DNA of 64,000 bases, from contig NZ_CP108458.1 in the NCBI RefSeq assembly GCF_036242395.1, forward strand, positions 8,122,001 through 8,186,000, in the 5' to 3' direction. Both the position numbers and the translations under genes were made by a program. Within the stretch, counting starts at the first letter, position 1; the number at the start of each line of letters is the position of its first letter. Source of the DNA: Kitasatospora sp. NBC_01266. Its GTDB lineage: Bacteria > Actinomycetota > Actinomycetes > Streptomycetales > Streptomycetaceae. Positions 9,058-59,336 of the stretch are shown here, in pieces. The notes under the pieces are model-generated. The model did no database searches. It had not been told where the DNA came from and worked only from the letters and a program-made list of their open reading frames with translations.

Positions 9058-9906
9058 TCATTCGCCACCTCCGTCGCCGTCCCGGTCGCCGACCTGGACG
9101 TTGGCGGCGGCCAGGTAGAGGACGTTCTTTAGCTGGAACGTGGTGAGCGAGGGATGCTTGGCGAGGATCCGGGCGCAGAGCCCGGCGAGGTACGGGGTGG
9201 CGAAGCTGTTGCCGGTGGTGCGGATGGTCGCGCCGCCCAGCCAGGGGACGGTGACGTTCTGGCCCTGGGCGAAGAACTCCACCGGTGGGCTCGGGTTGTA
9301 GAGGTAGAGCCCGGCGTCCTCCTCCTGGTGGCTGCCCACCGAGATGACCGAGGAGAACCGCCAGGGGAAGCTCTCCACCGGGGTGTTGTGCGCGGAGGCG
9401 ACGATGACCGTGCGGGCGAAGGCGGCCTCGTCGGCGATCGCCCGCAGGGCGTCGGTGAACTGCGGGCGGGTGGTCGACAGGCTCAGGTTGATCACGTCGA
9501 AGCGCTGCTCGACCGCCCAGCGCAGGCCCGCGAGCAGCACGTCGCCGGTGCCCGAGAAGCGTTGGCCGAGCACCCGGACGCTGTAGAGCTCGCAGTCCGG
9601 AGCGGTGCGCCGGATGATCCCGGCGCAGGCCGTGCCGTGTCCGCAGGTGTCGCCCGTCTCGGTCGGCTCGACGGTGATCGTCCCGTCCGGATCCCGGAGC
9701 ACCAGGTACGAGCCGTCGACCTGGCCGACCAGCGGGTGGTCGCGTTCGATCCCGCTGTCCACCACGCAGACCCGGATGCCACGGCCGGTGGAGCCGCCCC
9801 AGGCCCACTGCGGGGAGAGCCCGGGGCCGTCGGCGAGGATCGGGATCTCGGCCGGGCTGCGATCGCGCAGGCTCCAGGTGAGTCCGGATGCGGCGGTGCT
9901 GCTCAT
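9058..9906 (-). CDS. Subtilisin-like serine protease (S8), apparently cytoplasmic
   Basis: 282 residues. The catalytic triad is complete: Asp in VCVVDSGIE (about 49), His in CGHGTACAG (about 91) and Ser in TTGNSFATPYLAG (about 242). There is no signal peptide and no I9 propeptide, unlike secreted subtilases, which fits an intracellular peptide-processing protease of the kind found in RiPP operons. The ATG overlaps the stop of the upstream regulator gene (ATGA), so translation is probably coupled. A likely substrate is the 67-residue precursor encoded in the same operon; this is inferred from context. Confidence 0.87.
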   Translation of the reverse strand: MSSTAASGLTWSLRDRSPAEIPILADGPGLSPQWAWGGSTGRGIRVCVVDSGIERDHPLVGQVDGSYLVLRDPDGTITVEPTETGDTCGHGTACAGIIRRTAPDCELYSVRVLGQRFSGTGDVLLAGLRWAVEQRFDVINLSLSTTRPQFTDALRAIADEAAFARTVIVASAHNTPVESFPWRFSSVISVGSHQEEDAGLYLYNPSPPVEFFAQGQNVTVPWLGGATIRTTGNSFATPYLAGLCARILAKHPSLTTFQLKNVLYLAAANVQVGDRDGDGGGE

Positions 9907-12900
9907 CGGGGCAGGCCCTTCTCGTCGATGGTCGGGGCAGGGGGTGTCGGGTCCACAGGTTCTGCCGCGGCGTCGGCGGCGTCGGCAGCGGTGTTCGCGG
10001 CGACGGTCAGGGCGGCTGCCCAGCGGACGCCGACCAGATGGCCCTTCGCGGCGAACAGGTGGTCGGCCAGTGCGGCGGCCCGAGCGGCCGGGACGGGGCG
10101 GGCCAGCAGCAGCTCGCTGTGCGCCAGGTCCAGCGCGGCCATCGCCCGGACCACCGGAGAGTCGGTCAACCCCGCCTCGTCCACCGCCCGTTCGGCGAGC
10201 ACCGTGGCGCTCGCGGCGCACCCGCCGTGCGCCTGGACCCGGGCCAGGGTGCCGAAGAGATCGGCGGCGTCGGAGCAGGGCAGCCGGTCCTGCGCGGCGC
10301 CGAGCGAGCTCAGCGCGGTCGCGCACTCCTCGGTGCGGCCGGCGGCCAGCAGCGCGCGGGCGAGGTCTCGGCCGATGGCGCCGAGCAGTGCACCGGCGCC
10401 GAGTTCGCGGCCGGCCTGGTCCGCCCGGCGCAGCAGCGTGACGGCCTGCTCGGGGCGGCCGGCCAACTGCTCGACGGCGGCACCGAAGATCGGCAGGAAG
10501 ACCGCCGCCTCCGCGTAGCCGAGTTCGTCGGCCGTGCGACGGGCGGCGACCAGGCAGGCGCTTGCCTCCGCCCAGCGCTCACCGAGCGCGAACAGCACGG
10601 CGAGCGGGCAGTTGAGCGTGACCTGCACCGCTCGGCGGTCGCGGCCGTGGTCGGCCAGCAGGGTGCGGCAGCGGGCCACGGCCTCGGGCACCGGGGTCGG
10701 GCCCAGCCAGAGCGAGACCCCGATCGCCCCCAGTGCCGCCGCCCGCTCCGGCTCCGCCTCGGCCCGCAGGGCGTGTTCCAGCGCCCGGTCGAGCAGCCGC
10801 TGGGCCGCGCCGTGCCGTCCGAGCAACTGCTGCTCCTGGGCGATCCGCAGGCAGCAGCGGGCGATGCCGAGGGAGTCCCCGGCCGCGTCGAAGAGCGGCA
10901 GTTCGGCGCGGGCCACCTCGGCCACCCGCCGCAGGTCGGGACCGGGGTCCAGCACGGCGAGCGCGAGCCGCACCTGGGCGGCGACCGTGTCAGGCTGTTG
11001 GGCGCCGGGCTGTTCGGCGACGGCCAGCACCTGCCGCAGCAGCTCGCGGCCCTGTTCGGTGCGGCCGGTGGCGAGTTGGACTTCGGCCAGCCGCCAGGCG
11101 GCGGTCAGCCAGGGCGGCTCGCCCGGGTCGCAGAGGCCGACGGCCTGGGCCAGCAGCTCCTCGGCCCAGGCCAGGTCGGCCCGGGAGAGCGCGTGTTCGC
11201 CACCGCGGGCCAGCCGCTCGCCGGCCCGCAGGCGCAGCTCACCGGTGTGCGGGTCGATCAGGCCGAGGTCGGCGCGGTAGCGGTGGGCCTTGGCCAGGTG
11301 GCCACCGATCACGCTGTCCGGCGCGTTGCGCCCGGCCAGCAGGTCGGCGACCCGCTCATGCCGCTCGGCCCGGATCCGCTTGGCCATGCTCTGGTAGGAG
11401 ACCTCGTGGACCAGTCCGCTGCTGAAGCGGTACATCGCCTCGCCCGCCACCGCTCCCTCCGCCGTCTCGATCAGCCGACGCCGGTCGAGGCCGCGCAGGG
11501 CGGGGCGTACCGCGTCCACGCCGTGGCTGTCCGGGGCGAGTTCACCGCCCTGGCCGCCCTCGGGGCCGGACCGGGCCAGGTCGGCCAGCTCGTCGGTGCC
11601 GAACTCGCGGCCGACCACGGCGGCCAGTGACAGGGCCGTGCGCTCCGGCCCGACCAGCGCGTCGATCCGGGCGCCGAGCAACGCCTGCACGGTGGGCGGC
11701 AGTTCGCTGGGATCGCGCTGCTCGGCCAGCAGGGCGAGCAGTTGCTCCAGGTGCAGCGGATTTCCCTCGGCCCGGTCCAGCAACTGGGCGGGCACGGTGT
11801 CGAGATGGCCGGCCACCTCGACCAGGCCCGCGGCCAGCCGCAGCGACTCGCGGGGGGTGAGCGAGTCGAGCACCAGGGTCTGGGCGCGGTCCTGGCCGGT
11901 GCCCCACCGCGGGCAGTTCTCCAGGAGTTCGAGCCGTGCCACGCAGAGCACCAGCACCGGCGCCTGGGCGAGGTCGGCGACCAGCCGCCCCAGCACCTCG
12001 CGCAGCAGCGGGCCGGCCCAGTGGAAGTCGTCGAGCACCAGGATGACCGGGCACCGGCCGGCGAGCGCGGCGAGCACCTCGGCCAGCGCCGCGCCGGTCT
12101 CCTCGGCCGACGGGGTCGGCGTGCCGTCCAGCAGCAGTCCGCCGCGGAGCAGGGCCAGCGACTCGGCGGCCGGGAAGCCGGGGCCGGGATCCGACGCCTC
12201 GGGCCTGGTACGCGGTGGTGGGCCCGGGGTGGCGCCGGAGCCACCCTCCCGGACGTCCGCCAACAGCCGTTGCAGGGCGTCGGCCAGCGGTGCGAGGCTG
12301 CCCCGGTCACCGTACGGGCGGCAACGGCCGCTGCCGGTCAGCGTGCTGCCGGGGCGGTGCCCCGCCAGCCACTCCCGGACCAGCCTGGTCTTGCCCATTC
12401 CCGCCTCGGCGTAGACGGTGATCAGCCGGGCGCCGGGCGTGCCCACCAGCTGGGCGAAACCCTCGTCCAGTTCGCCGAGTTCGCGTTCCCGGCCGACGAA
12501 CGGGGTGTCGAAGCGGCGCATCAGCTCGGGGTCGTCGCCGCGCAGGCCCAGCAGGCGGTAGGCGCGCACCCGTTCCGTCTTGCCCTTGAGTTCGAGCAGT
12601 CCGGCTTCCTCGACCACCGCGCAGGCGCCGGCCGCCCGCAGCGTGTCCGGGCCGATCAGGATCTGGCCGGCCGCGGCGTTCTGCTCCAACCGGGCTGCCA
12701 CGTTGACCACTTCGCCCGAGACCAGCGCCTGCCGCGCGCTCACCTCGCTGTTGGCCACCGCCTCACCGGTGTTCACCCCGATTCGGACGTCGAGCCGGAC
12801 ACCGAGCGAGCCGGTCAGCCCGGCGTTCAGCTCCTCCAACGCCCCGAGCATGTCGAGGGCGGCCGCCAGCGCGCGGCGGGCGTCGTCCTCGTGCATGGCC

Positions 12901-13208
12901 GGGATGCCGAACACCGCCATCACCGCGTCACCGATGAACTTCTCCACCGTGCCGCCGTGCAGCTCGAGTTGACTGCTCATCAGCTCGAAGTAGCGCAGTG
13001 TCACCGAGCGCAGCGCCTCCGGGTCGAGCCGGCCGGAGAGCGCGGTGGAGCCGACCAGGTCGCAGAAGACCACGGTCACCACCTTGCGTTCCTCCGCGCG
13101 CGCGGCGGCGGGCGCGGCGGGCTCGGGCGGCGCGGCGCACGGGGTGCCGCAGGACGGGCAGAACCGCGCCGCGTCCGGCAGGATTCCCCCGCAGGTCAGG
13201 CAGTTCAC
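9903..13208 (-). CDS. Zinc-ribbon/class III cyclase/AAA ATPase/TPR regulator
   Basis: 1101 residues. Order: N-terminal zinc ribbon with CLTCGG and CPSCG (3-20); class III nucleotide cyclase-like domain (about 40-220: VVFCDLVGSTALS, GTVEKFIGDAVMAVFG, IGVNTGEAV, GEVVNVAARLE); the linker FVGRERELGEL; an AAA/STAND ATPase (P-loop YAEAGMGKTRLV, Walker B-like VILVLDDFHWAG); then about 500 residues of helical TPR-like repeats. This architecture is common in actinobacteria as a large signalling regulator, usually lacking a DNA-binding domain. The metal-binding Asp of the cyclase core (FCDLVGS) and a second Asp (GDAVMAVFG) are present, so real cyclase activity is possible. Being embedded in the RiPP operon is unusual. 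Confidence 0.85.
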   Translation of the reverse strand: MNCLTCGGILPDAARFCPSCGTPCAAPPEPAAPAAARAEERKVVTVVFCDLVGSTALSGRLDPEALRSVTLRYFELMSSQLELHGGTVEKFIGDAVMAVFGIPAMHEDDARRALAAALDMLGALEELNAGLTGSLGVRLDVRIGVNTGEAVANSEVSARQALVSGEVVNVAARLEQNAAAGQILIGPDTLRAAGACAVVEEAGLLELKGKTERVRAYRLLGLRGDDPELMRRFDTPFVGRERELGELDEGFAQLVGTPGARLITVYAEAGMGKTRLVREWLAGHRPGSTLTGSGRCRPYGDRGSLAPLADALQRLLADVREGGSGATPGPPPRTRPEASDPGPGFPAAESLALLRGGLLLDGTPTPSAEETGAALAEVLAALAGRCPVILVLDDFHWAGPLLREVLGRLVADLAQAPVLVLCVARLELLENCPRWGTGQDRAQTLVLDSLTPRESLRLAAGLVEVAGHLDTVPAQLLDRAEGNPLHLEQLLALLAEQRDPSELPPTVQALLGARIDALVGPERTALSLAAVVGREFGTDELADLARSGPEGGQGGELAPDSHGVDAVRPALRGLDRRRLIETAEGAVAGEAMYRFSSGLVHEVSYQSMAKRIRAERHERVADLLAGRNAPDSVIGGHLAKAHRYRADLGLIDPHTGELRLRAGERLARGGEHALSRADLAWAEELLAQAVGLCDPGEPPWLTAAWRLAEVQLATGRTEQGRELLRQVLAVAEQPGAQQPDTVAAQVRLALAVLDPGPDLRRVAEVARAELPLFDAAGDSLGIARCCLRIAQEQQLLGRHGAAQRLLDRALEHALRAEAEPERAAALGAIGVSLWLGPTPVPEAVARCRTLLADHGRDRRAVQVTLNCPLAVLFALGERWAEASACLVAARRTADELGYAEAAVFLPIFGAAVEQLAGRPEQAVTLLRRADQAGRELGAGALLGAIGRDLARALLAAGRTEECATALSSLGAAQDRLPCSDAADLFGTLARVQAHGGCAASATVLAERAVDEAGLTDSPVVRAMAALDLAHSELLLARPVPAARAAALADHLFAAKGHLVGVRWAAALTVAANTAADAADAAAEPVDPTPPAPTIDEKGLPR

Positions 13209-13302: not shown

Positions 13303-13506
13303 TCAGAAGAGCGCGCCGCCGGCCACGTTGGCGTGCGCCTGGACCTCCGGCTCGAGCTCGTCCAGCCGGGCCTTGATGTCCACCAGCAGCGCGAGTTCTT
13401 CCTCGGTGAGGGCGCCGAACACCTCCGTCTGCTGCTCGGTGAAGGACTCGACGGGGAAACCGGCGGCGGCCAGCGCCGCGATGGTCCGCGGGTCGGGAGT
13501 GGGCAT
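13303..13506 (-). CDS. Putative RiPP precursor peptide, Cys-free
   Basis: 67 residues with a strong GGAGG upstream of ATG. The first half is a helical leader-like segment (TIAALAAAGFPVESFTEQQ), the middle is acidic and helical (LTEEELALLVDIKARLDELE), and the C-terminus is PEVQAHANVAGGALF. The size, acidic leader, Gly-rich aromatic C-terminus and position just after a radical SAM gene and a diiron gene all fit a RiPP precursor. There is no Cys, Ser or Thr near the C-terminus, so thioether or lanthionine chemistry is excluded and C-C/C-O coupling, oxidation or epimerisation is more likely. It resembles small proteins annotated as 'aroma-sacti cluster domain' in actinobacteria; that is from memory and unchecked. 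Confidence 0.72.
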   Translation of the reverse strand: MPTPDPRTIAALAAAGFPVESFTEQQTEVFGALTEEELALLVDIKARLDELEPEVQAHANVAGGALF

Positions 13507-13563: not shown

Positions 13564-14256
13564 TCAGTGGGTCCGCAAGCGGCCCGGGCGGGCCAGCCGG
13601 GCGAACAGTTCGGTTGCGGCATCGACCGTGTGCAGCGCGCTCACGGCGACGGCGGCCTCCTGGGCGGGGCTCAGTGGGAGCCGGTCGAGGATCCGCTCCA
13701 GGTCGGCGCAGTGGCCGGTGTCCAGAGCCGCGTGGCGGCTGACGGTCCGGAAGGCGGCCTGCGGCAGGCCGCTGTCGGCGGCGAGCTGTTCGGCCAGCCA
13801 GCGGGCCGGGGCGTGGCTCTCCAGAACCGTGATGTAGCCGAGCAGGGAGACCGGATGGAAGTGCTCGATCCAGTAGTACTGCGGTCCCACCAGCCGGGCC
13901 GCCACGGCCGTCGGCTGCTCCCGCAGCAGCGGCGCCGGGTCGAGCCCGGCGGCCGCGAGGTCGGCCAGCAGCCAGTCGTCGTGCCCGCGTTCCTCGTCGA
14001 TGTGCCCGGCCAGGTAGCTGCCCAGCGGACCGGCCACCGGGTCCGCCGGGCCCAGCTCCGCGCAGCGCCGGACCGCCAGTTCCATCAGCGGGACGGAGGC
14101 CCGCAGCACCTCGTGCATCGCGTGCAGGTAGCGGCCGTAGCGTTCGGCCAGGCCCTCGGGGTGCCAGAGGTCGGTCATGGCGGCGCGCAACGGGGTTGCG
14201 GCCAGGTCGAGTTTGAGGCGCAGGGTGGTGCTGCGCGACAGTGCGCGGTTGGTCAT
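13564..14256 (-). CDS. Haem-oxygenase-like diiron (iron-containing redox) enzyme
   Basis: 230 residues, all helical, of the HO-like/PqqC-TenA fold. Possible metal ligands are visible in AGHIDEERGHDDWLL (about 97-111) and later in HFHPVSLLGY, LESHAPARW and HAALDTGHCADLE. This spacing of Glu/His pairs is typical of HO-like diiron oxidases that work on amino acid or peptide substrates. The ATG overlaps the stop of the radical SAM gene (ATGA), so the two are translationally coupled, and the precursor gene follows 57 nt later. A joint role in peptide tailoring is the simplest reading. The family assignment is good; the reaction is unknown. Confidence 0.78.
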   Translation of the reverse strand: MTNRALSRSTTLRLKLDLAATPLRAAMTDLWHPEGLAERYGRYLHAMHEVLRASVPLMELAVRRCAELGPADPVAGPLGSYLAGHIDEERGHDDWLLADLAAAGLDPAPLLREQPTAVAARLVGPQYYWIEHFHPVSLLGYITVLESHAPARWLAEQLAADSGLPQAAFRTVSRHAALDTGHCADLERILDRLPLSPAQEAAVAVSALHTVDAATELFARLARPGRLRTH

Positions 14257-15416
14257 CGGTTTCCTGCCCGACCGGCCGGCGCTTCTGCCGACGGGAGTTG
14301 ACGTGCTGTCAGCCTGGTCGGCGACAGCTCCACCAGGTCCGCGTAGGGCGCGCAGCCGAAGCGTCGCACCAGCGCTGCCGGCCCGGCCGACGACTGCGTG
14401 CGGGCGGCCTGGAGGTCGAGCAACTCGCCCACCGGCCCGGTGCCGGCCAGGGTGGCACCGGCCAGCACCTCGGGATGCTCGCCCAGGGCGCGGCAGCCGT
14501 CGCAGTACCCGGCGCAGCGCTCGGCGCCGTCCTGCGGTTCGCCGAACCTGGCGTACAGGTGGGTTGGACCGACGGCGCGCAGCATCCGCAGCGCCGGGCT
14601 GCGCAGGGCCCGTTGCCGCACCGTCGGCCAGTCGTCCACGGCGATGTGGCCGAGCCGCAGGTGGGCGGGGGCGGGCCGGCGGTCCACCGTCTCCTGGTTG
14701 CAGCAGGCCAGCACGGTGCCGTCCGCCGCGACCACCGGCCACGCGGCCATCGCGCACGGCAGCGGACCACCGGCCGACTCCATTGCCGCTCCAGGGGTCG
14801 CCGTCGCGGTGACCCGGGCGGGGTCGGCCCAGGCGGCGGCGCGGCCCACCGCGCGCACCTCGTTGACCAGCATCGGCACCGTGTCGCCGAAGGTCCGGCG
14901 GACCTCGCCGGTGAGGTCGGCCAGGTACGGATCGTCCGGTCCGGTGCCCGTGACGTGCAGGCTCACCGGGATGCCCGCGTCCAGCACGGTCGCCAGCGCG
15001 CGCAGTACGTCGGCGCGGGCGACCTCGCGTTCGTGGAAGGCGTCGATGCTGGCGGAGAAGTGGTCGACGGCGGTGATCGCCCGCAGCACCCGCTCGGGGA
15101 TCCGGCCCTCGCGGGCGAAGAACATGCCGCTGAGCAGCGCGCTGCGGGTGCCCACCGCCCGTGCGGAGGTGGCCAGTTCGCGGACCAGCTCGGGTATCAG
15201 CAGCGGTTCGCCCCCGGTGAGCAGCACCAACTCCGGTCGGTCGGTCGGCCCGCAGGAGTTGATGAAGCGCAGCAGGTCGGCGGCGTCCTGGTCGGTTCCG
15301 CGAGGCGTCGAGGAGGTCGAGCAGTGCGCGCAGGCCAGCGGACAGCGTTGGGTGAGCATCACCAGCAGGCCCGCGCAGGGCACCGGACGCAGACCGACCA
15401 GCTCGGCCAACTCCAT
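14253..15416 (-). CDS. Radical SAM enzyme with C-terminal SPASM-like cysteines (peptide maturase)
   Basis: 387 residues. The radical SAM cluster motif is CPLACAHC (CxxxCxxC, about residues 25-32), followed by the SAM-binding LLTGGEPLL. The C-terminal part carries extra Cys (LACCNQE, then CAGYCDGC near 300), as in SPASM/twitch enzymes that hold auxiliary iron-sulfur clusters and modify ribosomal peptides. I chose the ATG at 15416 (MELAELVG) because GGAGGGGAG lies 7 nt upstream; an upstream in-frame ATG has no such site. It heads the seven-gene minus-strand operon that contains a Cys-free precursor, so C-C bond formation or epimerisation is more likely than thioether formation. Confidence 0.85.
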   Translation of the reverse strand: MELAELVGLRPVPCAGLLVMLTQRCPLACAHCSTSSTPRGTDQDAADLLRFINSCGPTDRPELVLLTGGEPLLIPELVRELATSARAVGTRSALLSGMFFAREGRIPERVLRAITAVDHFSASIDAFHEREVARADVLRALATVLDAGIPVSLHVTGTGPDDPYLADLTGEVRRTFGDTVPMLVNEVRAVGRAAAWADPARVTATATPGAAMESAGGPLPCAMAAWPVVAADGTVLACCNQETVDRRPAPAHLRLGHIAVDDWPTVRQRALRSPALRMLRAVGPTHLYARFGEPQDGAERCAGYCDGCRALGEHPEVLAGATLAGTGPVGELLDLQAARTQSSAGPAALVRRFGCAPYADLVELSPTRLTARQLPSAEAPAGRAGNR

Positions 15417-15753
15417 GGATGCGCTCCCCTCCGGTCCGCTGTGTGTCGCGTGCTCGCTGCTCTCCGCGTGCTGCCAGCACTCTGACCGGACCGGGTTGGC
15501 GAGGGGTTCAGAGGCACGCCGAAACCGGTACATCCGCAGGTCAGCCGTGACGGTGGAGGCCGTGGGCGGTCGGTGGGGTGCCGCCGCGCGGGGTCCGGCG
15601 CCCGGTCAGCGGCCGATGCCAGGGGCGCTGAGCTGGGCATACCCGGTCTCTGTACCGGAGCCGAACCGTTCCCGTTCCGGCGCTCCATAGGTTCCTTCCT
15701 GTCGGTACGGGAGACCCTCCCGCCGAGTCCCGTAGATGTGATCGGAGATCACC
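15417..15753. promoter_or_regulatory. Divergent control region between two RiPP operons
   Basis: No gene is seen in this 337-nt gap between the starts of the two oppositely transcribed operons. It holds inverted repeat TACGGGA (15706-15712) / TCCCGTA (15728-15734), and just upstream of the repeat-precursor start the perfect dyad GTGATC-GGA-GATCAC (15738-15752). The second dyad contains the GGAG ribosome binding site (15744-15747) of the GTG at 15754, so it may act as an operator or as an RNA hairpin that hides the site. Promoter boxes are not obvious by eye. Confidence 0.5.
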
Positions 15754-16698
15754 GTGGCTGAGAACAAGGAGCCGACTCCCGAGGTCGTCTCGCACAGTGG
15801 TGAGGACACCCCTGGGTGGTGTATCGCGCACAGCGCGCCGGACGCGGTGGCCGAGGTTGTCGCTCACCGCGGTGAGGACACCCCGTCGTGGTGCATCGTG
15901 CACAACGAGGGGGACGCGGTGGCGGAGGTTGTCGCGCACAGTGGTGAGGACACCCCGGGTTGGTGCATCGCGCACAACGTGGACGCGGTGGCGGACGTCG
16001 TCGCGCACAGCGGTGAGGACACGCCGTCGTGGTGCATCGTGCACAGCGCGCCGGACGCGGTGGCGGAGGTTGTCGCGCACAGCGGTGAGGACACGCCGTC
16101 GTGGTGCATCGTGCACAGCGCGCCGGACGCGGTGGCGGAGGTTGTCGCGCACAGCGGTGAGGACACCCCGGGTTGGTGCATCGCGCACAGTGCGCCGGAC
16201 GCGGCGGCGGACGTCGTCGCCCACAGTGGTGAGGACACGCCGTCGTGGTGCATCATGCACAGCGCGCCGGACGCGGCTCCCGAGGTTGTCGCGCACAGCG
16301 GTGAGGACACCCCGGGTTGGTGCATCGCGCACAGTGCGCCGGACGCGGTGGCGGAGGTCGTCGCGCACAGCGGTGAGGACACCCCGGGTTGGTGCATCGC
16401 GCACAGTGCGCCCGACGCCGTGGCGGACGTCGTCGCGCACAGCGGTGAGGACACCCCGTCGTGGTGCATCGTGCACAACGAGGGGGACGCGGTGGCGGAG
16501 GTTGTCGCGCACAGCGGTGAGGACACCCCGTCGTGGTGCATCGTGCACAACGAGGGGGACGCGGTGGCGGAGGTCGTCGCCCACAGTGGTGAGGACACCC
16601 CGTGGTGCATCGGGCACAGCGCCACGGACGTGGCGCCCGAGGTCGTCGCCCACAGCGCCGACGAGACCCCGTGGTGCATCGGCCACTACACGGACTGA
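15754..16698 (+). CDS. Multi-core RiPP precursor: 13 tandem WCIxH units
   Basis: 314 residues: a 9-residue start (MAENKEPTP), then 13 tandem units, mostly 24 residues, of the form EVVAHSGEDTPSWCIVHS plus APDAVA. Every unit has one Trp-Cys-Ile-x-His core, with x being Ala, Val, Met or Gly. Units 3 and 12 have 23 residues and the last has 19; units 12 and 13 lack the residue between Pro and Trp. The linker after the core is SAPD in seven units, NEGD in three, and NVD, SATD or YTD in single units. GTG start with GGAG 6 nt upstream. A radical SAM/SPASM enzyme, exporter, prolyl oligopeptidase and glycosyltransferase follow on the same strand, so it is read as a multi-core precursor giving up to 13 products. 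There is almost no separate leader. A repeat metal-binding protein (Cys plus two His per unit) is the alternative. Confidence 0.85.
   Translation: MAENKEPTPEVVSHSGEDTPGWCIAHSAPDAVAEVVAHRGEDTPSWCIVHNEGDAVAEVVAHSGEDTPGWCIAHNVDAVADVVAHSGEDTPSWCIVHSAPDAVAEVVAHSGEDTPSWCIVHSAPDAVAEVVAHSGEDTPGWCIAHSAPDAAADVVAHSGEDTPSWCIMHSAPDAAPEVVAHSGEDTPGWCIAHSAPDAVAEVVAHSGEDTPGWCIAHSAPDAVADVVAHSGEDTPSWCIVHNEGDAVAEVVAHSGEDTPSWCIVHNEGDAVAEVVAHSGEDTPWCIGHSATDVAPEVVAHSADETPWCIGHYTD
15781..16695 (+). repeat. Tandem 72-bp repeat array, 13 units
   Basis: Thirteen in-frame direct repeats of about 72 bp (units 3 and 12 are 69 bp, the last 57 bp) with no spacers, encoding the multi-core precursor. Nucleotide identity between internal units is very high, including at third codon positions, which indicates recent expansion or homogenisation. 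Each unit can itself be read as two related 12-residue halves (xVVAHSGxDxxx and WCIVHSAPDxxx share the HS and Asp positions). Confidence 0.95.
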
Positions 16699-16825: not shown

Positions 16826-18031
16826 GTGGAAACGACGCACGCATCGACCGGTACCTCGACGGATGCCACCGGCAGTCGCCTGCTCAAGGCGGCGAACGGC
16901 TGGTGGTTCCTCGGTGACGGTGGGGTCGCCCGGCTGCGCCCCGCGCAGGTGTCCCCGGACGGCGTGCTGCTGCCCGCCGCCGAGCAGTACCTGCAGGACG
17001 CCGGGCTCTACGAGAGCAAGCCGTTCAGCTCCTACTCACTGACCGTGCTGACCAGCACCGACTGCAACCTGGGCTGCGGGTACTGCTTCCAGAACACCGC
17101 GCAGGACCCCAAGGGCGGTGACCGGCCGCCGCGCATCGCCCATTCCCGTCTCACCTCCGAAATGATCACCTCGGTACTGGACTTCACCCGGGCGCGGATG
17201 ACCGAAGGCGGCTTCCGCAAGCTCGCGGTGATGCTGTTCGGCGGCGAGCCGCTGCTCAATCCGCGCGGGGCGCGTGAACTGCTGCGCCGGGCAGCGGATT
17301 TGGGTGAGCTCACGGCGAGCATGGTGTCCAACGGCACCCTGCTCACCCCGCTGATCGCCAAGGACCTCAGTGCGGCCGGTCTGCGCTCGGTCCAGATCAC
17401 CTTCGACGGTGACAAGGACGAACACGACGCGATCCGGGTGCGGCGCTCCGGTGGTGGCACCTTCGACGTGATCATCAGCAATGTGGCGAAGGCGATGGCC
17501 GCCGCCCCCTCGCTCCGCTGGCACCTGCGGGTCAACGTCTCGCACCTCAACCGGCACGGCATGGACGACCTGGTCGAGCGACTGGCCGGCAGCCTCGACA
17601 CGGCCCGCTGCGGCCTGAACTTCTCGCTGGTCGGTGACATCGGGGTCGGCTACGGCAACGAGCTCGCCTACGGCGGCGAGTTGGCCCAGGAGTTCGCCCG
17701 CTGGCACGCCCGAGCCCTGGATCTGGGCTTCGCGGTCTCCCGGCCGCGCGCCAACCGCGGCTGCCAGGCCTGCAGTTACAAGGACGGCAAGTACGGCGCG
17801 GTGGTCAACGCCGATGGTGTGCTCTCGAGTTGCTGGGAGACCGCAGGCCGGCCGGGCTGGGAGGTCGGCAGCATCGCCGACGGCTACCTCTCCCACGAGG
17901 AGACCGAGGGGCGCTGGATCTCCTGCAGCGACCAGTACGAGTACGGCGAGAACGCGGTGGGGCTGAGCTCCTTCCAGGACGAGGTCGACGCCATCCTGCT
18001 CGACCAGTTGAACAGCTCCGGCCGGCTCTGA
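16826..18031 (+). CDS. Radical SAM/SPASM peptide maturase
   Basis: 401 residues. The N-terminal 60 residues resemble a peptide-recognition (RRE-like) region followed by LYESKPFSSYSLTV. The cluster motif CNLGCGYC (CxxxCxxC, about residue 80) is followed by MLFGGEPLLNP and SNGTLL. The C-terminal third has SPASM-type cysteines: GCQAC (about 313-317), SSCWE (about 333) and ISCSD (about 370), enough for two auxiliary clusters. GTG start with GAGGAGA about 6 nt upstream. It lies directly after the WCIxH repeat precursor. In this family Cys-containing cores commonly become sactionine-type thioethers, while Trp-containing cores may be cross-linked through the indole. Both residues are adjacent in every core. 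Confidence 0.9.
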   Translation: METTHASTGTSTDATGSRLLKAANGWWFLGDGGVARLRPAQVSPDGVLLPAAEQYLQDAGLYESKPFSSYSLTVLTSTDCNLGCGYCFQNTAQDPKGGDRPPRIAHSRLTSEMITSVLDFTRARMTEGGFRKLAVMLFGGEPLLNPRGARELLRRAADLGELTASMVSNGTLLTPLIAKDLSAAGLRSVQITFDGDKDEHDAIRVRRSGGGTFDVIISNVAKAMAAAPSLRWHLRVNVSHLNRHGMDDLVERLAGSLDTARCGLNFSLVGDIGVGYGNELAYGGELAQEFARWHARALDLGFAVSRPRANRGCQACSYKDGKYGAVVNADGVLSSCWETAGRPGWEVGSIADGYLSHEETEGRWISCSDQYEYGENAVGLSSFQDEVDAILLDQLNSSGRL

Positions 18032-18057: not shown

Positions 18058-19329
18058 ATGGCTGATCCCGGGGTGCTGCGGGTGAACCGGGACTTCCGGC
18101 GCTACTGGGTGGGCACGGCGTTGTCCATGCTGGGCTCCCAGATGTCGCTGATCGCCTTCCCGTTGCTGGTCCTGTCGATGCACGGCGGTGCGGCGCAGGC
18201 CGGCCTGGTGGCCTCCTGCTCGCTGGTCACCCGGATGCTCTTCCGGTTGCCCGCAGGGCAGTTGGCCGACCGGGTGGACCGCCGCCGGCTGATGCTCGGC
18301 GCCGACCTGGTCCGCCTGGCGACGGTGGGCAGTATCCCGCTGACCGCCGGCCTCGGCGCGTTGGGGTATCCGCAGCTGCTGGTGGTCGCGCTGGTCGAGG
18401 GTGTCGCCACCTCGGTGTTCAGCCCGGCGAGCACCATCGCGGTGCGTGACGTGGTGGCCGAGGAGCACCTGGCGGACGCGTTGGCGAAGAGTCAGGCAGC
18501 CTCGGCGACCGCCTCGCTGATCGGGCCGTTCCTCGGCGGCTGGCTCTTCACCGTCGACCGGATCCTGCCGTTCACCGCCGATGCCGCCTCCTACGCCGTC
18601 TCGGCGTTCCTGCTGTGGCGGATGGTCACCCGGCCGGCGGAGCGCGACGCTGCCGCCACCACCGACCGCAGTGTGACGGCCGGGCTGCGCTGGCTGGTCA
18701 GGCAGCCGGCCCTGCTGCGGGCGCTGGCCTTCGGCGCGCTGCTCAACCTGGTCGCCTCGGCCGCCGAGGTGGCGATGGTGGTGACGCTGCGCACCACCGG
18801 CACCGGCGGCACCGCCATCGGGTTGGTGATGGCCTGCGCGGGCGTCGGCGCGGTGCTCGGCTCGCTCGCCGCCGCGCGGGTGCTGAAGCTGCTGACGCCA
18901 GGTCAACTCTTCCTCGTCATCGGCGTGGTCTGGTCACTGGGCCTCGCCTCGTTCGCCGCCACCCAGCGTCCGTGGGTGCTCGGGCCGGTGCTGGTGGTGC
19001 TGATCCTGTTGACGCCGCCGTGCGGGATCGTGGTCGGCCAGGCCGTGCTGAGCCAGTCGCCCCGGGAACTGCTCGGCCGGGTGAGCACGGCGACCAACCT
19101 GGTGATCGCCGGGCTGGCCGCGCTCGGCCCCATGCTGACCGGCGTGGCGCTGCAGGGGATCGGGATCTCCCGGACCTGGCTGGCGCTGGCGGTGATCGTG
19201 GCGGTCTCGACGGCGTTCGCCGCCGTCCCGATGCTGCGCACCACCGCGCTCACCGAGCCCGGGTCGGCGCAGCGGCCGCTGGACGCCGACCCGGCCGGCG
19301 ACACCCCGTCCGCCGCGGCGACCGCCTGA
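18058..19329 (+). CDS. MFS exporter
   Basis: 423 residues with about 12 hydrophobic segments. The loop 2 signature LPAGQLADRVDRRRLMLGAD is a clear MFS motif of the drug-exporter type (MFS_3/enterobactin-exporter-like). ATG start with GGAGG upstream, 26 nt after the radical SAM stop, so it is in the same operon. Likely job: exporting the mature peptide and giving self-protection. The C-terminal 30 residues are polar, cytoplasmic and low complexity. Confidence 0.88.
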   Translation: MADPGVLRVNRDFRRYWVGTALSMLGSQMSLIAFPLLVLSMHGGAAQAGLVASCSLVTRMLFRLPAGQLADRVDRRRLMLGADLVRLATVGSIPLTAGLGALGYPQLLVVALVEGVATSVFSPASTIAVRDVVAEEHLADALAKSQAASATASLIGPFLGGWLFTVDRILPFTADAASYAVSAFLLWRMVTRPAERDAAATTDRSVTAGLRWLVRQPALLRALAFGALLNLVASAAEVAMVVTLRTTGTGGTAIGLVMACAGVGAVLGSLAAARVLKLLTPGQLFLVIGVVWSLGLASFAATQRPWVLGPVLVVLILLTPPCGIVVGQAVLSQSPRELLGRVSTATNLVIAGLAALGPMLTGVALQGIGISRTWLALAVIVAVSTAFAAVPMLRTTALTEPGSAQRPLDADPAGDTPSAAATA

Positions 19330-19467: not shown

Positions 19468-21642
19468 ATGACCGCATCCCGACCCACGACAGGGCAGAGC
19501 ATGACCGCATCGATCGAGTACCCGGCCGCGGCCCGCGCCGACCTGGTCGAGGAACTGCACGGACACCAGGTCGCCGACCCGTACCGCTGGCTGGAGGACG
19601 AGCACGACCCGCGGACCGCCGAGTGGTCCGCGGCGCAGCAGGAGCTGTTCCGCCACCGCCGGGCGGCCTGGCCGGCCGAGCCGGTGCTCCGCCGCCGGCT
19701 CGCCGAACTGCTCGACACCGGCGCCCGGTCCTCGCCGAGGGTCTGCGGGCCGTGGCAGCTGCGCACCCGCCGGGCGCCGGGCCGGGACCTGCCGGTCATC
19801 GAGGCCCGCACCGAGCGCGACGCCCCGGCCCGCACGGTCTTCGACCCGCTGGTCCTGGACCCGTCCGGCGCCACCGTGCTGGACGAGTGGACACCGTCCT
19901 GGGAGGGCGCCGCGATCGCCGTACAGACCTCCACCGGTGGCACCGAGGACTCCGTGCTGCGGGTGCTGGACACCGCCACCGGCGCGGTGCTCGACGGACC
20001 GATCGACCGGCTGCGCCGCTCCACCATCGCCTGGCTGCCGGGCGGCCGAGGCTTCTACTACATCCGGCGGGCGGCCCCCGGGGCGATCCCGGGCGAGGAG
20101 CGCTACCACCGGCGGGTCTACCTGCACCTGGTGGGCACCGATCCGGCCGAGGACCGGCTGATCTTCGGCGAGGGTCGGGAGAAGACGCAGTACTACGAGG
20201 TCGCCACCACCCCCGACGGCCGCTGGCTCACCCTCACCGCCAGCAGCGGGGCCTCGCCGCGCACCGACGTGTGGCTCGCCGACCTCACCGCGAGCTCTCC
20301 GGAACACCCGCTGCTGCGTCCGGTCCAGGAAGGCGTCGAGGCCAGGACCGAGATCCGGCTGCGGCCCGGCGCCGGGCCCGACGGCGAGCTGTTCCTGCGG
20401 ACCACGCGGGACGCGCCGCGCGGCCGGATCGAGCGGGCCACCCCGGCCGATCCGGCCGCGCGCACGGTCCTGGTCGCCGAGGATCCGCAGGCCGTGGTGG
20501 TGGGGTTCGTGGTGCTGGACGGACCCGAACTGCCGCGTCCACTCGCCCTGGTGAGCAGGATCCGGCACGCGCTGAGCGAGATCACCGTGCACGATCTGGC
20601 CACCGGTGAGCAGCTGGGCGAGGTCGGCCTGCCCGGCCCCGGCGCGGTCGGACCACTGCTGGTCGGCTCCGACCCCGGGCACGACCTGTGGTTCCGCTAC
20701 AGCGACTTCGTCACCCCCTCGAAGATCCTGCACTACGACGCCCGGACCGGCCGGACCGAGTCCTGGGACTCCGCCGAGCGGTTACCGGCAGGCCGCCGCG
20801 ACACGGAGGTGACGGTCCGTCAAATGACGTACCCGGCAAGGGATGGAACCGAGATCCGGGTGTTCCTGGTATCGCCGACCGGCCGCCCCGACCACCCGCG
20901 TCCGACGATCATCACCGGCTACGGAGGGTTCGGCGCCTCGATCGTGCCCGAGTACGCGCCCCAGGCGGTGGCCTGGGCCCGGGCCGGCGGGGTCTACGCC
21001 TTCGCCTGCCTGCGCGGCGGCGGGGAGGAAGGCGAGCAGTGGCACCGGGCCGGCCGGCGCGAGCACAAACCGAACACCTTCGACGACCTCGACGCGGCCG
21101 CCGACTGGCTGCTCGCGGCCGGCTGGGCGGCACCCGGGCAGCTGGGCCTGTGCGGCAGCTCCAACGGCGGGCTGACGGTGGGTGCGGCGCTCACCCGCAG
21201 CCCGGAGAAGTACGCGGCGGTGGTCGCCCTCGGCCCGCTGCTCGACATGGTCCGCTACGAGCACTCCGGGATGGGCCCGAGCTGGCGCGAGGAGTACGGC
21301 AGCGCCGCCGACCCGGTCGAACTGGGCTGGCTGCTCGGCTACTCGCCGTACCACCGGGTGCGCGAGGGAGTCCGGTACCCCGCCGTGCTGCTCGGCGCGG
21401 CCGACGGGGACACCCGGGTCGACCCGCTGCACGCACGGAAGATGTGCGCCGCGCTGCAGCACGCGGCGCTGACGGGCGGCGGCGGCCCGGTGCTGCTGCG
21501 GGTGGAGCGCGGGGTCGGCCACGGCATCCGCGGTGTGGCCAGCACGGCCGAAATCCTCGCCGACGTCCACTCCTTTCTCGCCGAACAGCTCGGGCTCGCC
21601 TTCGACCCCGGGCGCGAACCCACCTTGGAGGCAGCCCGGTGA
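19468..21642 (+). CDS. Prolyl oligopeptidase (S9A)
   Basis: 724 residues from this ATG, or 713 from a second ATG at 19501; the two starts sit in near-duplicate sequence (gcATGACCGCATC), and neither has a strong ribosome site. The N-terminal YPAAARADLVEELHGH and DPYRWLEDEHDP are the S9A signature; a beta-propeller region follows (about 80-430), then the alpha/beta hydrolase. Catalytic Ser is in CGSSNGGL (about 568), Asp in DGDTRVDP (about 650) and His in GVGHGIRG (about 690). No signal peptide, so it is cytosolic. S9A enzymes cut short peptides after Pro, and one fungal member also macrocyclises amatoxin precursors. The adjacent precursor has Pro just before every WCIxH core and, in seven units, three residues after it. 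A role as core-excising protease is a strong inference. Confidence 0.9.
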   Translation: MTASRPTTGQSMTASIEYPAAARADLVEELHGHQVADPYRWLEDEHDPRTAEWSAAQQELFRHRRAAWPAEPVLRRRLAELLDTGARSSPRVCGPWQLRTRRAPGRDLPVIEARTERDAPARTVFDPLVLDPSGATVLDEWTPSWEGAAIAVQTSTGGTEDSVLRVLDTATGAVLDGPIDRLRRSTIAWLPGGRGFYYIRRAAPGAIPGEERYHRRVYLHLVGTDPAEDRLIFGEGREKTQYYEVATTPDGRWLTLTASSGASPRTDVWLADLTASSPEHPLLRPVQEGVEARTEIRLRPGAGPDGELFLRTTRDAPRGRIERATPADPAARTVLVAEDPQAVVVGFVVLDGPELPRPLALVSRIRHALSEITVHDLATGEQLGEVGLPGPGAVGPLLVGSDPGHDLWFRYSDFVTPSKILHYDARTGRTESWDSAERLPAGRRDTEVTVRQMTYPARDGTEIRVFLVSPTGRPDHPRPTIITGYGGFGASIVPEYAPQAVAWARAGGVYAFACLRGGGEEGEQWHRAGRREHKPNTFDDLDAAADWLLAAGWAAPGQLGLCGSSNGGLTVGAALTRSPEKYAAVVALGPLLDMVRYEHSGMGPSWREEYGSAADPVELGWLLGYSPYHRVREGVRYPAVLLGAADGDTRVDPLHARKMCAALQHAALTGGGGPVLLRVERGVGHGIRGVASTAEILADVHSFLAEQLGLAFDPGREPTLEAAR

Positions 21643-22844
21643 ACGTCCTGCTCTGCCCGCTGGCCGACCCCGGCTACCGCTATTCGAGCATCGCGGTCGG
21701 CCTGGAGCTGCGCCGCCGCGGCCACGCCGTCCGGATCCTGGAGCCGGCTCCGGGCCTGCCGCCGATCACCCCGCCGGACCTCGATCCCTGCCTGGTGCAC
21801 GACCTGGTCGACCCGCGCACCTTCCGGGTCGGCCGCTGGTTCCTGCACGGGCTGCCGCAGTTCCAGGCCGTGGTCCGGGCGGCCCGCGAGACCAGGGCCG
21901 AGGTGCTGGTGACCTCGCTGCTCTGCCACGGAGCCCTGCTGGCGGCCGAGTTCCTGGACCTTCCGGTGGTCGTCCTGGGGCTGGCCGCGCACCTGTGGCC
22001 CTACCAGGCGCAGTTGCCCGGCGAGCCGGCCGGTCCCGAGTTGCAGCGCGAGTGGCGGCTGGGTGAGACCGGCAAGGCGTACCAGCAGGCCCGCGAGGCG
22101 GCCGAACTCCCGCCGCGCGACGACCGCGCGCCGCAGGCCGTGCTCTCCGGCAGCGCGCTGCTGCTGCGCGGTGATCCGGCGTTCGAGGAGCCCGGGGCCG
22201 TACTGCCGGACGGCATCCGGCACGTCGGCCCGTGCTGGTGGGAGCCCGCGGCACCGCCGTCCGAACTCGGCGAGATCGACGAGCGGATCCGGCGGGTCGG
22301 CAAGCCCGTCGTCTACGTGCACCTGGGGCGCAGCTTCGGCGGGACCAGCCTCTGGCCCTGGCTGAACGAGACCTTCCGGGACGGCCCGTTCCAGGCCGTG
22401 GTGGAACTCGGCCGCTCCGGCGCGGCGCAACCGGACCAGGGGACGGACATCCTGGTGGTGCGCAAGCCGTGGATGTCGCCGCTGGTCGACCGGGCCGACG
22501 TCGTGCTGACCAATGCCACCACGTCGCCGGTGCTCGCCGCACTGCTCGGCGGGCGCCCGCTGCTGGTGGCGCCCGCCGGGGGAGAGCAGCTCGTGCTCGG
22601 CGAGGCCTGCGTGCGAGCCGGTCTGGCCCTGCGGCTGCCGACCGCCGGCGGCTCGGGGAGCGGCGCGGACGGCGCGGAGAGTCAGCACGCCGGCGCGGTG
22701 AGTGGTCGCGGCGGCGGTTCGGAGCTGATCGCCGCGGTGCTGGCGGACCGCTCGATCGCCGACCGGGTGCGGCAGGTCGGCGAGCGGCTGCGGCAGTCGA
22801 AGAGCGAGGCGGTGGCGGCCGACGCCGTCGAGGCCGCCTGCTGA
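21639..22844 (+). CDS. GT1-family glycosyltransferase
   Basis: 401 residues with a GT-B fold: N-terminal MNVLLCPLADPGYRYSSIAVG, middle YVHLGRSFGG, and a C-terminal donor-site-like region (RKPWMSPLVDRADVVLTNATTSPVLAALLGGRPLLVAP). This matches macroglycosyltransferase/UGT-type natural-product enzymes. A Gly/Ser-rich insert (GGSGSGADGAESQHAG) interrupts the last helix region. GTG start overlaps the peptidase stop (GTGA), with GGAGG 8 nt upstream. As the last gene of the repeat-precursor operon it may glycosylate the released peptide, which would make the product a glycosylated RiPP. Sugar donor unknown. Confidence 0.8.
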   Translation: MNVLLCPLADPGYRYSSIAVGLELRRRGHAVRILEPAPGLPPITPPDLDPCLVHDLVDPRTFRVGRWFLHGLPQFQAVVRAARETRAEVLVTSLLCHGALLAAEFLDLPVVVLGLAAHLWPYQAQLPGEPAGPELQREWRLGETGKAYQQAREAAELPPRDDRAPQAVLSGSALLLRGDPAFEEPGAVLPDGIRHVGPCWWEPAAPPSELGEIDERIRRVGKPVVYVHLGRSFGGTSLWPWLNETFRDGPFQAVVELGRSGAAQPDQGTDILVVRKPWMSPLVDRADVVLTNATTSPVLAALLGGRPLLVAPAGGEQLVLGEACVRAGLALRLPTAGGSGSGADGAESQHAGAVSGRGGGSELIAAVLADRSIADRVRQVGERLRQSKSEAVAADAVEAAC

Positions 22845-23670: not shown

Positions 23671-23754
23671 GACCCGGACATCGCCCGGGCCGACCCCGGT
23701 GGAACCAGGGTCTGTACGGCGCACTTGAGCGTTGATCCGAAGGAGGGAGATCCG

Positions 23755-25605
23755 ATGCTGGATCATATGGCTACCCCCCGACCTGTGTTGTCGAGCGGCC
23801 CCGCCACGGAGCGCGCCGGCGTGCGCTTCCGGGTGCTGGGAGAGCTGTCGGTGGAGGTCGGCGGACGACCACTGCCGCTCGGGCCGGTCAAGCAGCGACT
23901 CGTCCTCGGGGTGCTGCTCTGCCACCCCAACACGACCGTCTCGACCGAGCGGCTGACCGAGGCGCTCTGGGGCGGCGAGCCGCCCCGCTCGGCCCGCAAG
24001 AACCTGCAGGCCTACGTCTGCGGGCTGCGCAAACTCCTGGAGCTGCCGGGCGAACCGAGTCGGCTGGTCCACCAGGGCGCGGGCTACGTGCTGCGGGTCG
24101 GGCCGGTGGAGTCGGACCTGCTGCGGTTCGAGGAGCTCGCGCGGGCCGGGCGGCAGGCCGCGCGGCTGGGGGCGGGCGAGCACGCCGCCCGGCTGCTGCG
24201 GGAGGCGCTCGACCTCTGGACCGGCCCGCTGCTGGCCGATCTGAGCGGCTGCGAGGCGGTCGGCGCCGAGGCCGAGCGTCGCGAGGCGCGTCGGCTGGCG
24301 GTCTACGAGGACTGGGCCGAGGCCGAGTTGGAGCTGGGCCGGGCACCGGTGGTGGCCGAGGCGCTCGCCGAGGTGCTCGCCGAACACCCGCTGCGCGAGC
24401 GGCTCTGCGCCGCCCAGATGACGGCGCTGCACCGCTCCGGGCGGCAGAGCGAGGCACTGGGCCTGTACAACGACCTGCGCCAGTTGCTCGCCCGGCAGTT
24501 GGGCCTGCAGGTCAGCCCGGCCCTGGAGGCGCTCTACCGGTCGATGCTCGGTGGTCCGCCGCAGCCCGCGACCGCGCCCCGGCAGCGCACGGAGCGCACC
24601 GAGCGCGCGGTGACCCGCACCGACACGATCCTGCCGGCCGACCTGCCGGACTTCACCGGCCGGCAGTCCCAGGTCCGTGAACTGCTCACGGTGCTCGCCG
24701 GATCGGCCAGGACGGCCGTGGTCACCGGTCCGGTCGGCGTCGGCAAGACCACCCTCGCGGTGCACGTCGCGCACCGGCTGCAGCAGGAGTTCCCCGACGG
24801 GCGGATCACCGTGCGGATGAGCCGGGAGGACGGCTCGGCCCGGCCGCTCGGCCGGGTGCTCGCCGAACTCTGCCGCTTCGCCGGGCTGCTGGACACGGTC
24901 CCGGAGGACGAGGAGGAGGCCGCGGCGCTCTGGCGGTCCTGGCTGGCCCGGCACCGGGTCCTGCTGCTGCTGGACGACGCCCCGCACGAGGGCAGCATCC
25001 GCCAACTGCTGCCCGGCGCCGGGGCGAGCGCCGTGCTGGTCACCAGCCGCTGTCGGCTGGTGGGTCTGGGCCCGGTCCACCGGCTGGAGTTGGGGCCGTA
25101 CCCGGTCGGCGAGGCGGTCGACCTGCTCGGGCGGATCGCCGGTACCGCGCGGATCGCGGCGGACCGCCCGGCGGCGGAGCGGATCGCCACCGCGGTGGGC
25201 CTGCTGCCGCTGGCCATCCGGGTCTGCGGCTCCAAGCTGGCGGTGCTCCGCCAGCTCTCGCCGGCCGAGTACGCCACCCGGCTGGACGGCAGCCCGGCGC
25301 TGCTGGACGAGTTGGCGGCCGGTGACCTGGCCGTCCGCACCCGGCTGGCCTGCTGGTGGGGCGCGCTGCCCGAGGCCCTCCGGGCGGCCCTGCGCTCGCT
25401 CGGGCAACTCCCCTCGCCGCTCTTCACGTTGAACGAGGCGATGGCCGTCTTCGGCCAGGATGGGGAGGCGACCATGCGGGTGCTCGAGGGCCTGATCGAG
25501 AGCTGCGTGCTGGACTGCTCGTTCAGCGAGGTCTCCGCGCACGCCGCGCTCTACGAGGTGCCGCTGCTGACCCAGCTGTACGCGCGCGAGCAGGCCGCTA
25601 GCTGA
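23755..25605 (+). CDS. SARP-type regulator with NB-ARC domain (AfsR-like)
   Basis: 616 residues. Residues about 25-110 are an OmpR-like winged helix (RVLGELSVEVGGRPLPLGPVK, then LWGGEPPRSARKNLQAYV), 115-265 the bacterial transcriptional activator (BTAD) domain, and 290-600 an NB-ARC ATPase (FTGRQSQVREL, P-loop GPVGVGKTTL, LLLLDDAP, RLVGLGPVHRLELGP). The long AfsR TPR tail is missing. The start has an excellent site, AAGGAGGGAGATCCG-ATG. SARPs activate antibiotic clusters by binding heptamer repeats near -35. It lies between the repeat-RiPP operon and the peptide-aldehyde genes and could control either. Its 3' end overlaps the convergent transferase gene by 8 bp. Confidence 0.88.
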   Translation: MLDHMATPRPVLSSGPATERAGVRFRVLGELSVEVGGRPLPLGPVKQRLVLGVLLCHPNTTVSTERLTEALWGGEPPRSARKNLQAYVCGLRKLLELPGEPSRLVHQGAGYVLRVGPVESDLLRFEELARAGRQAARLGAGEHAARLLREALDLWTGPLLADLSGCEAVGAEAERREARRLAVYEDWAEAELELGRAPVVAEALAEVLAEHPLRERLCAAQMTALHRSGRQSEALGLYNDLRQLLARQLGLQVSPALEALYRSMLGGPPQPATAPRQRTERTERAVTRTDTILPADLPDFTGRQSQVRELLTVLAGSARTAVVTGPVGVGKTTLAVHVAHRLQQEFPDGRITVRMSREDGSARPLGRVLAELCRFAGLLDTVPEDEEEAAALWRSWLARHRVLLLLDDAPHEGSIRQLLPGAGASAVLVTSRCRLVGLGPVHRLELGPYPVGEAVDLLGRIAGTARIAADRPAAERIATAVGLLPLAIRVCGSKLAVLRQLSPAEYATRLDGSPALLDELAAGDLAVRTRLACWWGALPEALRAALRSLGQLPSPLFTLNEAMAVFGQDGEATMRVLEGLIESCVLDCSFSEVSAHAALYEVPLLTQLYAREQAAS

Positions 25606-58881: not shown

Positions 58882-59336
58882 GTCGGCACGCTGCCATGGA
58901 CACCTGCGAACCGTCCGCAGGAAGCTCGGGGCCGCCGGCAATACGCACGCGATTGCGGTTGCCGCGCTGCTGGGCCTGATCGCCGTGCCGGTAGTCCCCG
59001 TCCGACTGCCAGGTCCACCTCGCCTCGGCCAGGTGCCGAACTCCGTCGGCAGCTCCCGTCACGGCCCGCCCCTCCTGAACCGCCAGATCACCCCCGCGAA
59101 CTGCTGCCGCAGCCGCTCCGGGGACGGGCCGTACCCGCCGATCGGCAGGTACGGCCCCCCGCGAACTGCTGCCGCAGCCGCTCCGGGGACGGGCCGTACC
59201 CGCCGATCGGCAGGTACGGCCCGGTGAACTCCTGGTCCGCATATGTCAGTTGCTGTCGTGTCAGACAGCCTGATCTGCCGGACCAGGCATCGCCGCTGGG
59301 CGGATCCACAGATTGACCACAACCAGATGCACGCTC
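58882..59336. other. Non-coding or decayed region with 65-bp tandem duplication
   Basis: No intact gene in 455 nt. On the minus strand several frames read like degraded coding sequence: TGPYLPIGGYGPSPERLRQQ in one frame, then LAEARWTWQSDGDYRHGD further on in another. The repeated block lies in the first of these. A broken gene is likely, but its family was not recognised. Confidence 0.45.
59096..59222. repeat. Two-copy 65-bp tandem duplication
   Basis: 59096-59160 is repeated at once from 59161; identity is exact for about 62 bp (to 59222). The period of 65 is not a multiple of three, so the duplication shifts any reading frame that crosses it. The unit begins GCGAACTGCTGCCGCAGCC and contains the palindrome-like CCGCCGATCGGC. 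Confidence 0.93.

Follow-up and report, generated by a model that had tools for sequence, protein, structure and literature searches.

A thirteen-unit tandem RiPP precursor in Kitasatospora and the radical SAM cassette predicted to cross-link it

Organization of the locus

The DNA analysed here, a stretch of 64,000 nucleotides from the soil actinobacterium Kitasatospora sp. NBC_01266 (the window), carries two divergent gene groups separated by 220 bp (Table 1). One comprises a precursor open reading frame built of 13 tandem units, the radical SAM enzyme rSAM1, an MFS exporter, the prolyl oligopeptidase POP, a GT1-like glycosyltransferase (GT) and a SARP-type regulator. The other encodes a second radical SAM enzyme (rSAM2), a haem-oxygenase-like enzyme (HO) and a 67-aa protein with an aroma-sacti domain. 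The region between them is likely the shared regulatory region of the divergent operons. No terminator-like site was found between the precursor and rSAM1, the GT gene overlaps the POP gene by 4 nt, and the HO gene overlaps the stop of rSAM2. A preliminary description of this DNA had placed a radical SAM enzyme, an exporter, a prolyl oligopeptidase and a glycosyltransferase downstream of the precursor, and these were recovered as radical SAM, MFS, S9 and weak GT1-type proteins; the present analysis adds the divergent rSAM2, HO, the small aroma-sacti protein and the SARP regulator.

Table 1. Features of the locus (window coordinates)
Feature	Position	Strand	Evidence
67-aa aroma-sacti domain protein	13303..13506	-	NF045560, 76.7 bits; after HO
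Haem-oxygenase-like enzyme (HO)	13564..14256	-	PF14518; conserved residues; fold
rSAM2, second radical SAM	14253..15416, start inferred	-	profile matches; conserved in relatives
Divergent intergenic region between rSAM2 and precursor, 220 bp	15534..15753	.	sequence
Precursor, 13 tandem units	15754..16698	+	ORF/translation, Tandem Repeats Finder, unit list, orthologues
13 recognition-motif and core units, period 72 bp	15781..16686	+	Tandem Repeats Finder, unit list
rSAM1, radical SAM	16826..18031	+	profile matches, conserved Cys, predicted fold, CteB nearest
MFS exporter	18058..19329	+	Pfam MFS_1 / MFS_3; conserved in relatives
Prolyl oligopeptidase POP, S9	19468..21642	+	Pfam Peptidase_S9_N / S9; 2bkl
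GT1-like glycosyltransferase (GT)	21639..22844	+	weak TIGR01426; distribution
SARP-type regulator (Trans_reg_C, BTAD, NB-ARC)	23725..25605	+	domains; conserved in relatives

On the flanks, two overlapping minus-strand genes lie past the end of the SARP gene (25601-29784), one NRPS-like (MbtH/adenylation/carrier/thioester-reductase) and one resembling leucyl/phenylalanyl-tRNA-protein transferase, possibly a tRNA-dependent amide-forming pair. Adjoining the cluster on the opposite side, a large guanylate-cyclase/AAA/TPR protein and a subtilase are encoded on the minus strand (9061-13208). Elsewhere, Tandem Repeats Finder reports a perfect 65-bp tandem duplication (59091-59222, 100% match) and 4.6 copies of CAAGGATCCG at 97% match (63413-63458).

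The tandem array

The precursor is 314 aa long and contains 13 in-frame WCIxH motifs, 23-24 aa apart, at residues 22, 46, 70, 93, 117, 141, 165, 189, 213, 237, 261, 284 and 307, embedded in units of the pattern V[VS][AS]H-(S/R)GEDTP-(G/S/-)WCI[A/V/M/G]H followed by a linker. The start codon is GTG, with GGAGATCACC directly upstream, and ahead of the first unit stand nine residues, VAENKEPTP; relatives begin at the same place (MAEN...). Thirteen WCIxH units of about 24 residues, a nine-residue start and Ala, Val, Met and Gly as the variants of x had all been proposed beforehand, and the translation agrees on each point. A Pro directly precedes the core in every unit, as DTP in 12 and as ETP in the 13th.

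Tandem Repeats Finder describes a 72-bp array at 15781-16676 (12.5 copies, score 1183) with a 216-bp higher-order period (score 1310). Variation between units is mostly silent (pN/pS 0.21 over 16 conserved codons), so the array can be put down neither to an assembly error nor to a repeat free of selection; together with the repeat scores, this value rules out a chance or assembly origin. The source genome consists of two contigs, is 99.6% complete and has one precursor copy. Pfam matches on the repeat (Spt5 CTD, lambda ea8.5 and others) were rejected as low-complexity artefacts.

Conservation of the gene cassette

A search of 100 related genomes returned nine with a match, the window's own included, and the other eight were examined. 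The order precursor-rSAM1-MFS-POP is kept in seven of these close relatives, the contig of the eighth ending inside the cluster; the divergent rSAM2-HO pair is present in all eight, the SARP gene in five and GT in one, GT also occurring in many distant relatives. At the one single-unit Streptomyces locus looked at, two additional DUF6895 genes are present; a DUF6895 protein is called a lasso-peptide epimerase in the title of a 2026 paper, as cited in PMC13352647. A search of named genomes with an rSAM1 alignment yielded 65 loci, nearly all from Actinomycetota and including two remote non-actinobacterial matches. The family extends over Streptomyces, Kitasatospora, Catenulispora, Planobispora, Lentzea and Mycobacterium, common collection strains among them.

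Across 392 genomes of the order, the precursor profile occurs in 26 and rSAM1 in 33 (hypergeometric P 1.5e-34, a count that ignores shared ancestry), with sites listed at most about 4 kb apart, except in one genome with an intervening contig break. The preliminary description had regarded precursor homologues without a radical SAM or peptidase neighbour as evidence against its reading. For the radical SAM gene no such case arose, since all 26 precursor-positive genomes have rSAM1; POP is near the precursor in seven of the eight close relatives and was not found near some family members. The proposed enzyme set stands insofar as the cassette recurs, with the amendments that GT is optional and that the locus also includes rSAM2, HO and the small aroma-sacti protein. 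An encoded peptide with recognition and core segments adjoining genes for modifying enzymes is one mark of a RiPP precursor, and the open reading frame has this arrangement. Conservation of the cassette and the co-occurrence with rSAM1 strongly support a multi-unit RiPP precursor, and from these comparisons it is very probably rSAM1 that modifies it.

The distribution of GT bears on a different role for the core Cys, namely that it serves mainly as an S-glycosylation site in a glycocin-like peptide made by GT, the radical SAM enzyme acting elsewhere. The overlap of the GT1-like gene with POP in the window and its presence in 45 extracted loci speak for such a role. Most of the closest relatives, however, carry the same Cys core without GT, and rSAM1 is always present, so that we consider glycosylation as the main fate of the Cys improbable.

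Precursor family and recognition motif

Precursors of the eight close relatives have 3 to 6 units with differing cores (WCGINTGTS, WCIGHSE, WCFSNSGN, WCVINTGTT and WCGVNVGT); their units keep EVVAHS..E(D/E)TPWC, two free positions and then N or H. In the wider family, many precursors are a single unit of 37-48 aa, in which V[VIEQ]AH is followed by an acidic spacer and then by C-x-x-[N/H/Q/Y/F], as in MPENTNPKPTEDEDIEVVAHSEDEEAEAGCIVNNSSDLS or, at locus L034, MSEQNDLNPEPQITEEEAPEVVAHSDDEGEETPWCVGHQEKVN; in most cases 7-13 residues separate AH from Cys. At the Streptomyces exfoliatus locus L040 the one-unit precursor has 39 aa. Because V[VIEQ]AH occurs once in the single-unit relatives, each of the 13 units corresponds to a recognition motif, spacer and core of its own. 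A unit comprises a recognition or hinge motif [PA]-[ED]-V-[VIEQ]-A-H, the acidic spacer and the Cys core. The precursor had been described as almost leaderless, which is not borne out, the motif being repeated in every unit. The 13-unit array derives from a one-unit precursor by tandem duplication, and multi-unit precursors require at least three changes on the rSAM1 tree.

These relatives weigh against the idea that the repeat is a stable metal-binding protein with C-x-x-H ligands. A chain with 13 Cys and many His invites it, CxxH being a frequent ligand spacing. The relatives, however, are single units of about 40 acidic residues with Asn, Gln, Phe or Tyr in the place of His, and they are strictly linked to a radical SAM gene and usually to peptidase and exporter genes. 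On these grounds a metal-binding repeat is highly improbable.

Precursors were recovered for most of the 65 rSAM1 loci and not found at L047, L068, L069, L076, L085, L090 and L091, of which L085 is a short contig. At the Mycobacterium locus L071 (9671-11543), rSAM1 is accompanied by three small peptides that carry [LI]L[GA]H and cores of the form C-x-x-Q-C. At L086 (9693-11069), at least five separate one-unit precursor genes carry the cores CKIFV, CTVYV, CPLML and CNYYN, a diversity like that of the tandem array but spread over separate genes. No NCBIfam or Pfam model covers the precursor or rSAM1, and a search of openly available full texts gave no description of the precursor, the rSAM1 family or the combined gene set. 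The motif, unit design and gene set are accordingly without match in the libraries and literature searched, while a radical-SAM RiPP with a thioether-type enzyme is of a known kind.

The core rule

Cys is invariant in the family cores, and across 60 distinct five-residue cores the residue three positions on (+3) is N in 25, H in 14, Q in 8, Y in 6 and F in 3. Cys with this restricted +3 residue is found in 56 of the 60; the four exceptions have S, C, L or M, and in most of these cores there is a second Cys. Positions +1, +2 and +4 are less constrained. Many members lack Trp, and it was dismissed as a common core residue. The WCIxH core first described is valid for the window precursor, and the family-wide form is C-x-x-[N/H/Q/Y/F] with Trp dispensable. 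A rule of C-x-x-[N/H/Q] drawn from the first loci proved too narrow, as rSAM1-positive genomes outside that set had C-x-x-[F/Y], and the +3 set was enlarged after inspection of further loci. N, H, Q, Y and F share a CH2 adjoining an sp2 carbon. This common sp2-activated CH2 fits side-chain radical chemistry, an argument that is partly post hoc since the set was widened after the loci had been seen. The acceptor class switches at least six times on the rSAM1 tree.

Related enzymes act on comparable positions: PapB bonds Cys to Cbeta of Asp and likewise to Cgamma of Glu, a position termed ‘chemically analogous’ (PMC9413430), NxxcB couples Cys with Cbeta of Asn, QhpD acts at Asp Cbeta and Glu Cgamma, and CteB acts with Thr (PMC8326336).

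rSAM1 and its predicted reaction

The cluster motif CX3CX2C of rSAM1 falls on C80, C84 and C87, and the only further Cys conserved in the alignment are C262, C313, C316, C336 and C367. The segment C316-X14-G-X4-C336 and the Cys at 313 and 367 together look like a twitch domain with a single cluster, compared with the two auxiliary clusters of a full SPASM domain. By profile the nearest solved structure is the thioether synthase CteB (E 9e-22), and models of PapB and of the quinohemoprotein maturase were matched below their curated cut-offs, which places rSAM1 in the kinship of ranthipeptide maturases. The CefB and TIGR04463 equivalogs were rejected (107 bits each against cut-offs of 600 and 525). 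In the predicted fold (pLDDT 89.5), CteB ranks first by Foldseek and VIA (Z 26), with anSME and ChlB (Z 23-24) and SkfB just behind; because anSME and ChlB share this structural nearness, the comparison does not point specifically to thioether chemistry. Ahead of the SAM core the model, checked for an RRE, has only three strands and one helix (residues 18-58). No plasmid copy of rSAM1 was found.

From the +3 residue set, we give an even chance to a modification by rSAM1 that links Cys to the +3 side chain as a thioether. A different rSAM1 reaction on the same RiPP precursor, whether an alpha-carbon sactionine, an anSME-like Cys oxidation or a Trp-based cyclophane, is a possible but less probable outcome. 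The fold proximity of anSME and the sactisynthase SkfB, the invariance of Cys and the Trp before Cys in the window's clade are all in keeping with one or other of these reactions. A +3 residue limited to N/H/Q/Y/F, however, is more than Cys oxidation or a permissive sactionine would call for, and a Trp cyclophane as the family reaction is at odds with the many members that have no Trp.

The divergent operon

rSAM2 is weakly like the epimerase YydG/EpeE and also weakly like PqqE. HO has the invariant residues E88, H91, E145, D178 and H181 (24 sequences), and its fold neighbours are 3dde, CADD, UndA and HrmI; the predicted fold and the His/Glu/Asp set are those of haem-oxygenase-like di-metal enzymes, as in UndA and CADD. 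The 67-aa protein passes the aroma-sacti domain model NF045560 (76.7 bits against a cut-off of 30) and falls short of the StsA-related NF045559 (28.9 bits against 75); the 13-unit precursor matches neither. Its C-terminus, EPEVQAHANVAGGALF (PEVQAH..AGGALF), contains the hinge found in the precursor units, and the protein is possibly a second precursor or a separate leader-like partner.

Among domain-bearing loci, the tail AG[GA]ALF is present in 39 of 39 with HO and in none of 11 without, the 39 being related to one another and not independent events. Since rSAM2, HO and AGGALF are also found together where rSAM1 is missing, next to other peptides with PEVEAH, for example ...PEVEAHSVLDLQETSVQGGDTTDGNCISVLSVVE, they form a separable module, which either makes its own product or acts as a shared partner. 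Modules of this kind lie at L100 (4600-8860), L103 (5816-7898) and L105 (160-4314), with the hinge PEVEAH/AEVEAH and precursors with other cores (GNCISVLSVVE, STVSLGEC); by sequence, they appear to belong to a wider hinge-based RiPP family.

The locus might accordingly hold two RiPP systems, rSAM1 acting on the 13-unit precursor and rSAM2 with HO acting on the 67-aa protein, whose tail [VIL]AG[GA]ALF would give rise to a conserved second product. The strict pairing of tail and HO and the module's occurrence apart from rSAM1 favour two systems, and a radical SAM enzyme weakly like YydG/PqqE alongside an enzyme of haem-oxygenase fold recalls PQQ logic. The 67-aa protein may, however, be a leader-like partner or scaffold rather than a substrate, and the HO/tail loci are related. 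We regard two systems as rather unlikely, though compatible with the maturation route proposed below.

Proposed maturation pathway

The explanation that best accounts for the locus, and one we consider probable, is a RiPP family in which rSAM1 forms thioethers, POP cuts and the MFS pump exports. Very likely, the neighbouring enzymes cross-link the 13-unit protein and divide it into a number of short peptides. Comparative evidence supports the RiPP identity well: unit anatomy, family, conserved motif and linked genes are shown. The type of bond, where the chain is cut and what is released we infer.

rSAM1 would read the VVAH motif in each unit and join the Cys sulphur to the activated side-chain CH2 three residues on, at Cbeta of His, Asn, Tyr or Phe or at Cgamma of Gln, giving a non-alpha thioether with the loss of 2 Da per unit. 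POP would cut after the Pro in DTP-(G/S)WC, and in many units after SAP too, to release short W-C-I-x-H peptides. Optional later steps would comprise glycosylation and the alterations due to rSAM2, to HO and to the aroma-sacti partner, the MFS pump would export the products, and the SARP protein would turn the cluster on.

For the cutting step, POP is by sequence a relative of true prolyl endopeptidase (2bkl, E=6e-115), with the beta-propeller and S9 catalytic domain of an S9A prolyl oligopeptidase and no evident signal peptide. This assignment and the DTP or ETP ahead of every core match each other. Pro before the core is absent in some family precursors and POP was not found near some members, both of which count against the proposal. 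Known prolyl oligopeptidases prefer short peptides, so a chain of 314 aa may first have to be cut by a different enzyme.

More broadly, the loci could represent a widespread, unnamed actinobacterial RiPP class. In it a one-cluster radical SAM enzyme would make i,i+3 thioethers from Cys to His, Asn, Gln, Phe or Tyr, 13 per chain in the window, by unit-wise reading of the hinge, and a PQQ-like rSAM2 and HO route would act on an aroma-sacti peptide whose AG[GA]ALF tail is invariant; we advance this only tentatively. If the thioether assignment holds, one radical SAM family would accept five or more kinds of acceptor residue, always in position +3, on natural tandem substrates. Cross-link selectivity would be directly testable, and many thioether-bridged peptides could be obtained from one chain. 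To our knowledge, a thioether between Cys and the side chain of His would be a new product for a radical SAM enzyme.

Comparison with known systems

The ranthipeptides (CteA/CteB SCIFF, PapA/PapB freyrasin and NxxcA/NxxcB) share with this system a Cys-bearing precursor adjoining a radical SAM gene, an enzyme near CteB and acceptors with an activated side-chain carbon, and PapA has several cross-links per chain, as predicted for the window precursor. They differ in the core, which is C-X3-D or NxxC in place of C-x-x-[N/H/Q/Y/F]. Here, unlike there, the recognition motif is repeated in each unit, rSAM1 appears to keep Cys for only one auxiliary cluster, and the locus adds a second radical SAM enzyme, an HO-like enzyme, POP and a SARP regulator. 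StsA-related sactipeptides and aroma-sacti proteins are approached through the 67-aa neighbour, which has the NF045560 domain and a PEVQAH hinge resembling the PEV/AEV-V-AH of the precursor units; its NF045559 score and the failure of the precursor to match either model set the locus apart.

In TvgA, a repeated short core is changed by one radical SAM enzyme (PMC9062424). TigE and TvgA-TvgB resemble the present system in combining a repeated core with a radical SAM enzyme, TigE being among the structural neighbours of rSAM1, whereas their repeats are short core motifs without a recognition motif of their own, and TvgA involves no Cys chemistry. Cyanobactin precursors contain repeated recognition and core units, as does the window precursor, and fungal amatoxin/omphalotin systems use POP-family proteases for core release, OphP being among the matches to POP. 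Both differ from the present locus in their modifying enzymes, and there is no sign here of a POP that cyclises its peptide.
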